A DNA stretch of 64,000 nt from Magnetococcales bacterium WMHbin3 (lineage in GTDB: Bacteria > Pseudomonadota > Magnetococcia > Magnetococcales > Magnetaquicoccaceae). Under the pieces are notes generated by a model, which did no database searches, was not told the origin of the DNA, and was given only the letters and a program-made list of their open reading frames with translations. This document shows, piece after piece, positions 4,156 to 6,526 of this stretch. The position numbers were made by a program, and so were the translations under genes. The stretch is taken from positions 1-64,000 of the forward strand of contig PDZX01000004.1 in NCBI GenBank assembly GCA_002753185.1. Direction: 5' to 3'. Each line of letters starts with the position of its first letter. Within the stretch, counting starts at the first letter, position 1.

Positions 4156-5190
4156 ATGCACGAACTGCTTGCGCAATTGAAACGAACCGCCCTGGCGGAA
4201 CTGGAGTCCGCCACCTCTCCTGGTGAGCTGGAGGGGATCCGGGTGAAGACCCTGGGCAAGAAGGGGGCGCTGACGCAAATCCTGCGGGGTTTGGGTCAGG
4301 TTCCGGAGGGGGAGCGGCCCGCCATTGGCGCGCTGGCCAATGAGCTGAAGAGCGCCTTCGAGGTGGTCTTCGCGCGGTGCGAGAAGGAGTTGAAGAAACA
4401 TGAGCTGGCCGCGCGGCTGGATCGGGAGTGGGTGGACATCACCCTGCCGGGCCGTCCGCGTCCGTCGGGAGGGGTGCATCCGGTCACCCGTGCCTTCGGC
4501 GAGATCATCGCGATCTTCACCGCCATGGGATTTCCGCCTGCCTCCGGTCCAGAGGTGGAGAGCGACTGGCACAATTTCGAGGCGTTGAACATCCCCCCCG
4601 ACCATCCGGCCAGGGAGATGCACGACACCTTCTATCTGCCGCCCGGACCAGGGGGAGGAAAGCGGTTGTTGCGCACCCACACCTCGCCGGTGCAGATCCG
4701 GGTGATGCTGGAGCGCAAGCCGCCCTTGCGGGTGATCGCCCCTGGTCGGGTGTTTCGTTGCGACTCGGACCTGACCCACACGCCGATGTTTCATCAGGTG
4801 GAGGGGTTCATGGTGGACGAGGGGGTGAATTTCGGTCAGCTCAAGGGGGTGCTGGAGGTTTTTCTCACCCGTTTTTTCGAGCGCTCCTTGCCGGTGCGGT
4901 TTCGTCCCTCTTTTTTTCCCTTCACCGAGCCGTCGGCGGAGGTGGACATGGGGTGTCTGTTCTGTGAGGGATCCGGCTGCCGCATCTGCAAGCGCACCGG
5001 CTGGCTGGAGGTGCTGGGCTGCGGCATGATCCACCCGGCGGTGCTGGCCAACGTGGGGATCGACCGGGAACGCTATTCCGGCTTTGCCTTCGGCATGGGC
5101 GCCGACCGCCTGGCCATGCTCAAGTACGGCATCACGGACCTGCGGGCCATGTTCGACAACGACGTGCGGTTTCTTGGTAGGCAGGCATGA
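4156..5190 (+). CDS. pheS: Phenylalanine--tRNA ligase alpha subunit
   Basis: Catalytic subunit of the heterotetrameric PheRS that charges tRNA-Phe. 344 residues, normal length. It has an N-terminal coiled coil (about 1-90), then class II motifs: [11 protein letters not shown], motif 2 [25 protein letters not shown] segment (about residues 195-215), a cysteine-containing [14 protein letters not shown] loop normal for bacterial PheS, and motif 3 [18 protein letters not shown] near the C terminus. The ATG at 4156 is the first in frame downstream of the terminator; the frame is open far upstream but that part overlaps rplT. The stop overlaps the next ATG (ATGA), so the inserted ATPase gene is translationally coupled to pheS, and pheT follows only after the cassette. 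Confidence 0.97.
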
Positions 5191-6203
5191 GGGTGCACTC
5201 CCTGAAGATTCGCCGTTTCAAGCAGTTCGGCGAATACGAAGCGACTTTCACGGAGCCGGATCTGGACACCCCCAGGGATCTGGTGGTGTTGATCGGCAAC
5301 AATGGCAAGGGCAAGTCCACCATCCTGCAGGCCATCGCCCTGGTGCTGGGCATGGCGACCGGGCGATTGGCGTCGCCTGCTGAATTGGAATGGCCGGGTT
5401 TCGATTATGCCCTGGCTGGTAATGCCTGGAGCGAATCCCCTGAAATTGAGATGATGGTTGTGTTCGCACAGAAAGAAATTGAAGCCGCTATCGCATGTTT
5501 TAGGGCTTATTATAGTGAATATTTTGATATTCAAGGCATCGATTTTCCGCAAAGAATTACTATTAACTTTTCAAAAAATAATCTTAATTTAGATGATTTT
5601 ACAAAAAATATACTATTTCAAGGCAGGGATAATGCCATAAAAGTGTTGAAGTGGATTCCAAAAGAAATTGATATATTTAAAATAATTGGATCTGTGTTCT
5701 GGTTTCACGAACACCGTTCCGCGCTTCCGGGCGATGATGATTTACGAATACATTTGGATCAATGGCATAACTTTCATCTACGTATTGCGCGCGGCGATTA
5801 CCAATTGCGTCCTGGTCAGCAGGATCTGTTCAAGGGCATTCATGATGCATGGCAATCGATCTTTCCCGGAAGAAGTTTCGTTGGGAGCATCCCTGGGGAT
5901 TTCGGGGTTTCCACTGTCCCGAAATACTATTTTTCCGATGGGCAGCGGGATTACGAGTTGGCGGAAATGTCGGGCGGGGAAAGGGCGATTTTGCCGATTC
6001 TGATCGATTTCGCGCGTCAGAATATCCACAATTCGGTGGTTCTGATCGATGAAATCGAACTGCATCTGCATCCTCCGCTTCAGCAAGCCCTGGTCAGGGC
6101 CTTGGAACACCTTGGACAGAACAATCAATTCATCATCACCACCCACTCCCAATCCGTGTTGGATGTGGTGTTCGATAGCGACATTCACCGCGTTTATTTG
6201 TGA
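5187..6203 (+). CDS. AAA/ABC-type ATPase embedded between pheS and pheT
   Basis: 338-residue ATPase of the RecF/SMC-like 'AAA_21' type often seen in defence systems. Walker A is GNNGKGKST (37-45), the ABC signature is MSGGERA (261-267), Walker B is [13 protein letters not shown] (about 284-296), and a switch histidine lies in TTHSQS (318-323). The middle (about 85-200) is divergent and encoded by clearly AT-richer DNA (5480-5720), unlike the flanking synthetase genes, which suggests lateral acquisition. The ATG overlaps the pheS stop as ATGA. No transmembrane or nuclease domain is visible, so an effector would have to be the small downstream product or a host protein. Function is unknown; DNA or RNA surveillance is inference from the ATPase family. 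Confidence 0.85.
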
Positions 6204-6256
6204 TGCATGAATATCACGGATGCAAAACGTAGTTGATCGCTGCCTGGCGAGAAAAA

Positions 6257-6526
6257 ATGCAACCCGTCACGATTGAGACATTCATGAAACATTATTACGA
6301 CTGGTTGGCAAAGTTCCGGCAAGCCGCATTCTGGGATGAAAGAGCGTATTTGGTCTACTTCAGCGGCAAGGAGATGGCGGCCATGATGGAGAGAATCCCT
6401 CCAAAACCGATTTTTCCGTTGCATGATTTTTTCAGATGGGCCGTCAAAAAATTAAATTGGGAGTCCCATGACGACTTGTCGAACCTGCGGGATAAATTAT
6501 TCGAATTGAGAGTGAATACACCATGA
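6257..6526 (+). CDS. Small hypothetical protein, partner of the pheST-embedded ATPase
   Basis: 89-residue protein of no recognised family, rich in aromatic residues (MKHYYDWLAKF, FFRWAVKKLNW) and probably helical and soluble. ATG 6257 is chosen because GGCGAG lies 6 bases upstream; a TTG at 6233 would add eight residues. It starts 53 bases after the ATPase gene and its stop overlaps the pheT ATG as ATGA, so pheT translation is probably coupled to it. The DNA is somewhat AT-rich, like the preceding ATPase. Sharing the cassette suggests it is the effector or regulator of the ATPase, but nothing in the sequence identifies an activity. Confidence 0.7.
   Translation: MQPVTIETFMKHYYDWLAKFRQAAFWDERAYLVYFSGKEMAAMMERIPPKPIFPLHDFFRWAVKKLNWESHDDLSNLRDKLFELRVNTP

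Follow-up and report, generated by a model that had tools for sequence, protein, structure and literature searches.

In PARIS, which is encoded by two adjacent genes, a hexamer of the ATPase AriA holds the effector AriB in an inactive state; on release, which is triggered by a phage protein, AriB cuts tRNA (PMC12409363). It was suggested that the system forms a fourth class of OLD, one in which the genes are separate (PMC10568477). According to the published calling rule, an ATPase scoring at least 32 bits against AAA_15 or at least 27 bits against AAA_21 has to be adjacent to a DUF4435 protein of 27 bits or more (PMC9122126). Septu and retron type I-A pair the ATPase PtuA with PtuB, an HNH nuclease. 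For E. coli YbjD, anti-phage effects were reported to persist without the Toprim domain (PMC13261556). A defence insertion between pheS and pheT was not found among the literature matches listed, and a PARIS-like pair within DISARM was not found in the titles and abstract starts of the matches listed. The literature match for DISARM with DUF4435, PMC9122126, names DISARM once in its excerpted text, and the searched terms are absent from PMC12458937, which deals with DISARM helicases.

Here we analysed a window, the whole stretch of 64,000 nucleotides from Magnetococcales bacterium WMHbin3, in which reading frames related to these pairs lie between pheS and pheT. The joint contains the following features:

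4156 to 5190, plus strand: pheS, the upstream host gene; its TGA stop (5188-5190) overlaps the ATPase start (ATGA).
5187 to 6203, plus strand: PtuA/AriA-like ABC ATPase of 338 amino acids; reading frame from ATG 5187, with Walker A, signature, Walker B and H motifs.
6207 to 6236, plus strand: 9-codon stub, the surviving start of an AriB-like partner gene; it reads MNITDAKRS-stop and aligns to the first codons of the 287-residue gene of a sister species (G001).
6233 to 6526, plus strand: C-terminal remnant of the AriB-like partner, equivalent to residues 190-287 of the intact protein; its TGA stop (6524-6526) overlaps the pheT start (ATGA).
6523 to 8898, plus strand: pheT, the downstream host gene, from ATG 6523.

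The preliminary description of this DNA had proposed that a two-gene cassette is stitched into the operon by ATGA overlaps at both ends, and the coordinates (5187-5190 and 6523-6526) confirm these overlaps. The layout is not due to chance, as the sister species shows the same overlap of pheS and ATPase. The AT-rich middle of the ATPase gene that had been pointed out was also found, with a GC content of 33-36% (300-base windows, 5401 to 5850) compared to 62-70% inside pheS and pheT. That the essential operon might serve as a dependable source of expression is a reasonable suggestion, given that the ATPase gene is stitched into it. In the search for an internal promoter, the sole promoter-like match between 3900 and 6900 was on the minus strand (1 versus a shuffled mean of 1.5). 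Terminator-like matches in the same region numbered 7 versus a shuffled mean of 4.0, with one on the plus strand, inside the ATPase gene at 5899-5925. Neither count was taken as evidence.

The ATPase carries Walker A from G37, the signature at S262-E265, Walker B at D288-E289 and the H motif at H320. These columns are wholly or largely invariant in the aligned family, which bears out the complete Walker A, signature and Walker B described initially. In Pfam searches, the protein scored 83.4 bits against AAA_21 and 76.6 bits against AAA_15 and thereby passes both cut-offs of the PARIS rule. The PADLOC profiles matched in the order PtuA (1.3e-31), retron I-A ATPase (9.3e-28), AriAB (6.4e-27) and AriA (3.1e-23), whereas the NCBIfam model of retron Ec78 PtuA gave 91.5 bits at a cut-off of 500. 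A structural model with a pLDDT of 83 found retron I-A/PtuA entries as its first Foldseek matches (9n6c_B, E = 5.3e-15). The PtuA-like ATPase that is expected in Septu and retron I-A is therefore present according to both PADLOC and Foldseek, and sequence and modelled fold suggest that the window ATPase is nearer to PtuA than to AriA.

Alignment to the sister species indicates that the proposed two-gene cassette is a complete ATPase gene followed by the tail of a broken second gene. In the sister species, the order is pheS, ATPase (355 amino acids) and a protein of 287 amino acids, joined by ATGA; ATPase and partner together occupy L023 5866-7793. The small ORF of the window (89 amino acids from ATG 6257, or 97 amino acids from TTG 6233) is 60% identical to the last 98 residues (190-287) of this protein. 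Compared to the intact gene, 541 nucleotides are deleted in the window, so that residues 9-189 are gone and the 9-codon start stub is left. The number 541 is not divisible by three, which puts the remnant in a different frame from the stub; for translation, the remnant would therefore need a separate start codon, for example TTG 6233 or ATG 6257. The ATGA overlap between ATPase and partner that is seen in the sister species is absent from the window, where the ATPase gene ends with 6203 and the first position of the stub is 6207. The remnant keeps an F-x-G-K motif. Searches of Pfam, PADLOC and NCBIfam with the small ORF gave zero matches at an E-value of 1 or better. Among 61 genomes (own included), it matched only the window genome and the sister species, where the sole foreign match is the full-length gene. 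An independent small partner protein and a toxin-antitoxin pair with a short antitoxin were both rejected on the ground that the only foreign match of the small ORF in these 61 genomes is the C-terminus of the 287-residue gene. The initial reading as an ATPase with a small partner, a pair of an anti-phage class, holds with respect to the class of the ATPase and the former existence of a partner gene. It fails with respect to the small partner itself, which represents the tail of the AriB-like gene. Similarly, the 89-residue ORF as such is not conserved in the 61 genomes; what is present, in one sister species, is the full-length gene.

To the intact partner of the sister species, PADLOC assigned AriB with an E-value of 1.7e-5, and Pfam gave 17.4 bits for DUF4435 at a cut-off of 27. 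DUF4435 was matched by three of the ten intact partners scanned, all below this cut-off (17.4-26 bits; Trichormus 26.0, Nostoc 21.3); the Chloroflexi partner, that of a second pair in the window genome and the window remnant showed no match. The adjacent DUF4435 protein of at least 27 bits that the PARIS rule asks for was found neither with the remnant nor with the intact partners scanned. With an alignment of eight members (seven intact partners and the window remnant), AriAB of PADLOC was matched by six and AriB by four at an E-value of 0.1 or better, with a weak IetS match in one; in Pfam, one of the eight (the sister partner) matched DUF4435 and one showed a weak OLD-like TOPRIM match. A sequence profile search of the PDB with the partner returned AriB first, at a non-significant E-value of 0.12. 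The AlphaFold2 model of the partner had a mean pLDDT of 75 and was the one good model of five, the other four reaching 50-57. Its first Foldseek match was 8ux9_A, AriB in the PARIS complex (E = 1.2e-3, prob 0.99, TM 0.37), with zero PDB matches at an E-value of 0.001 or better. The patterns CEG, DRDFD and IENY occur in this order in the sister partner and, by analogy, may constitute its TOPRIM/catalytic motifs; all of them lie within the part that is absent from the window. Sequence and model thus suggest that the intact partner resembles AriB, the TOPRIM nuclease of PARIS. Because the similarity is weak, we call it AriB-like and not AriB. No PtuB or HNH match was observed for the intact partners in Pfam or PADLOC, and a Septu system with a shortened PtuB was rejected for this reason. 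As far as profiles and models can tell, the pair consists of an ATPase of the PtuA type and an effector resembling AriB. It shares with PARIS two adjacent genes, an ATPase above the cut-offs and, in intact relatives, a TOPRIM-like partner that matches AriB/AriAB and whose model fits AriB best. It differs from PARIS in the DUF4435 scores of the intact partners, the nearness of the ATPase to PtuA and the truncated partner in the window. From Septu and retron I-A, to which the ATPase is closest in sequence and fold, it differs in that the partner is not an HNH nuclease.

To survey the pair outside pheST, ATPase and partner profiles were run on 30 loci and the first 20 kb of the window. At 19 loci, one of which is the pheST copy of the sister species, the ATPase profile scored above 280 bits, and 18 of these have an adjacent partner, compared to none of the 11 loci with a distant ATPase (below 90 bits); several loci were in the training sets and match by construction, whereas neither of the partner sets contained L027, L096, L139, L143 or L144. 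The exception is a Bacteroidetes locus (L092, 282 bits) that lacks the partner. A contig scan for homologues yielded at least 40 loci. When a partner profile built from seven Magnetococcales proteins was applied to 44 loci (L091-L134), it matched only the sister's pheST copy (L091) and L093-L099; the taxa of these loci are Chloroflexi, Desulfobacteraceae, Deltaproteobacteria, Parabeggiatoa, a Richelia cyanobacterium, Desulfatirhabdium and Magnetococcales. At an E-value of 1e-30 or better, an ATPase match was obtained in nine of 398 genomes drawn from the phylum; all nine belong to the same order as the window. At 68 columns that are invariant in seven homologues outside pheST, the window ATPase keeps 52 residues and the sister copy 56. 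The preliminary description had held that wide occurrence outside pheST with unrelated partners would weaken the idea of an embedded system; homologues do occur outside pheST in several phyla, with partners of the same kind and not unrelated ones.

The closest relatives found outside the sister species are ATPase/DUF4435 pairs on conjugative plasmids of Nostoc and Trichormus (L143 and L144), located inside DISARM operons between a DNA methyltransferase and drmA. Their ATPases share 40-41% identity with the window copy and 43-45% with the sister copy, and their partners 31-33% with the sister partner. As at pheS, there is a 4-nucleotide overlap between the upstream gene and the ATPase start. 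In contrast to the window, the host operon is a defence operon and the partner is intact. Plasmid carriage was seen in four records, all from Nostoc or Trichormus. Carriage by phages or viruses was rejected: no phage record matched the ATPase homologue from the window genome at an E-value of 1e-10, and four loci on viral contigs are distant ATPases without a partner by the Magnetococcales-partner profile. In Parabeggiatoa (L096, 5083-5942), the partner is split over two frames beside an open ATPase, a second case of a damaged effector. The window genome itself contains a second, distant pair outside pheST (L031, contig C29, 5155-7100), with both frames at full length, behind a response-regulator gene.

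A pheT match was obtained in 53 genomes, and their pheS-pheT joints were inspected at 50 loci; 43 of these, window included, gave a distance, using tblastn-anchored starts and the first in-frame stop. Among these 43, only the window carries an insert; the other 42 joints measure -4 to 259 bp, and in the eight further genus members whose joint could be read, the two genes are 46-259 bp apart. The joint of the sister species, read separately (L023), contains the second insert. Six further joints gave no distance: in G011, G012 and G017 other genes lie upstream of pheT up to the contig limit, and in G013, G014 and G025 the contig ends within 0.8 kb of pheT. The former three, from the sister genus (L082, L083 and L084), have pheT beside cytochrome- and FKBP-like genes, by eye, with no pheS upstream as far as the contig runs; the operon seems to be split in these genomes. 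In G001, the partner stop overlaps the start of a decayed 5′ copy of pheT, as at the remnant/pheT joint of the window. This copy is followed by a 106-residue ORF with a nucleotidyltransferase domain (PADLOC candidate PDC-S09) and a 17-codon stub, the stop of which overlaps the start of the intact pheT. The extra segment (L023, 7787-8334) apparently goes back to a second insertion into this joint, which took place later, and our guess is that the 17-codon stub is a truncated toxin.

The homology of the pair, the fragment status of the small ORF, its location and the overlaps can be read from the sequences themselves. We consider it probable that they reflect a PARIS-like module lodged scarlessly in pheST, with the effector disabled in the window. 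A pair of an ABC ATPase sensor and an AriB-like TOPRIM effector would have inserted between pheS and pheT in the ancestor shared by the two sister species, or alternatively in one of the two, followed by transfer, and would have joined the operon through the 4-nucleotide stop/start overlaps. In the intact module, by analogy to PARIS, the ATPase would hold the effector until a phage protein is sensed; the released effector would act as a nuclease, possibly against tRNA, and halt growth. The window effector has lost its N-terminal two-thirds, leaving the ATPase and a C-terminal stub. With the nuclease core gone, the window copy should be silent. Its persistence is probably explained by selection against breaks in pheS-pheT translation, or by the ATPase still acting alone, as described for YbjD.

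The divergence between window and sister species bears on whether the truncated pair is still in use. The pheS protein is 94% identical and the ATPase 71%. Synonymous differences (pS) amount to 0.255 in pheS and 0.259 in pheT. Within the ATPase gene they are 0.16 in residues 1-60, 0.60-0.65 in residues 61-250 and 0.41 in residues 251-338, with the jump from 0.16 to about 0.6 in the region 5367-5936. This change within one gene, with which the AT-rich middle also fits, suggests that the cassette interior was exchanged by recombination, although composition may play a part, as may the alignment of the variable middle. The pairwise omega, which averages over the time before the deletion, was 0.27 (0.19-0.35) for the whole ATPase, 0.16 (0.10-0.27) for ATPase residues 171-338 and 0.40 (0.20-0.72) for the remnant. 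Differences at the three codon positions are flat in the remnant (23/27/27). In four comparisons, with uncorrected p values, this pattern was set against the whole ATPase (70/59/112, p = 0.12), the ATPase beyond residue 60 (65/56/107, p = 0.12), ATPase residues 171-338 (26/19/56, p = 0.013) and pheT (67/46/153, p = 0.0005). A relative-rate test showed no acceleration of the window copy in either ATPase or remnant. Relaxed constraint on the remnant is suggested by these patterns, but neither it nor a loss of function is proven, since p is 0.12 against the whole ATPase and the rate is not increased.

It seems unlikely that the truncated pair has been domesticated, either as a complex of ATPase and stub with an altered job, such as a nuclease-free sensor or a dominant decoy for related systems, or as an ATPase acting alone. 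The open ATPase frame with its conserved motifs and an omega of 0.27 against the sister species, the open C-terminal stub with its F-x-G-K motif, the YbjD precedent and the full-length distant pair in the same genome (L031) would all agree with such a role. However, in the 61 genomes the C-terminal stub matched only itself and, in one sister species, the full-length gene. Its codon-position differences are flat, and the pairwise omega also averages over the time before the deletion.

The preliminary description had also raised the possibility that PheRS, tRNA-Phe or translation is monitored by the cassette, which would make it a guard sitting in the operon of the guarded product. The scarless coupling to pheST in two species and the tRNA cleavage by AriB of PARIS could be explained in this way, as could a family member (L026) that ends 10 bp before a GatC ORF. 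At the 19 loci with a close ATPase, however, an upstream ORF of at least 80 amino acids overlaps the ATPase start by 4 nucleotides in eight cases and in none of the other 11. The overlapping gene was identified in five of the eight, namely pheS, a response regulator, a YhcG-type nuclease and two DISARM methyltransferases; the ORF at L095 has no Pfam match, and those at L028 and L092 may be spurious. With five of 19 loci overlapping an identified gene and pheS as one of four kinds, pheST looks like one landing place of the pair. There is no positive evidence for monitoring of PheRS or tRNA-Phe, as the module is found downstream of unrelated genes as well, and the window copy lacks the nuclease core; we regard this role as very improbable. 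At the locus with GatC, another tRNA-charging gene (L026, 6901-9177), the ATPase/partner pair lies immediately in front of this ORF. The broader proposal that the subfamily of PtuA-like ATPases and AriB-like TOPRIM proteins is an operon-embedded guard, which inserts by a 4-nucleotide overlap behind a watched gene and stops the cell when its product is inhibited, is likewise a long shot.

It is most unlikely that the deletion arose from faulty assembly and that the pair is intact in the window species: the genome is a draft of 157 contigs, so that an error at the deletion could occur, but both sides of the joint align to the sister gene and have yet diverged, no microhomology or direct repeat was seen by eye in about 30 nucleotides around it, and a search of the window genome with the intact sister partner returned no further piece at an E-value of 1e-4 or better.

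The reading of a PARIS-like module with a disabled effector implies that such a module can fit without scars between the genes for both subunits of an essential enzyme, and that the effector may later be lost while the overlap with pheT is kept. As a caution for annotation, a small ORF adjoining a defence ATPase may be a gene fragment rather than a partner. Our data further indicate that a subfamily of ATPase/TOPRIM pairs exists with partners under the published DUF4435 threshold, and that it occurs inside DISARM operons on conjugative plasmids. If the guard proposal for this subfamily were true, the watched products would be the DISARM methyltransferase on cyanobacterial plasmids and that of pheS in these magnetococci. 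The pheST form would then guard an aminoacyl-tRNA synthetase operon, and the window copy would be its disarmed descendant.
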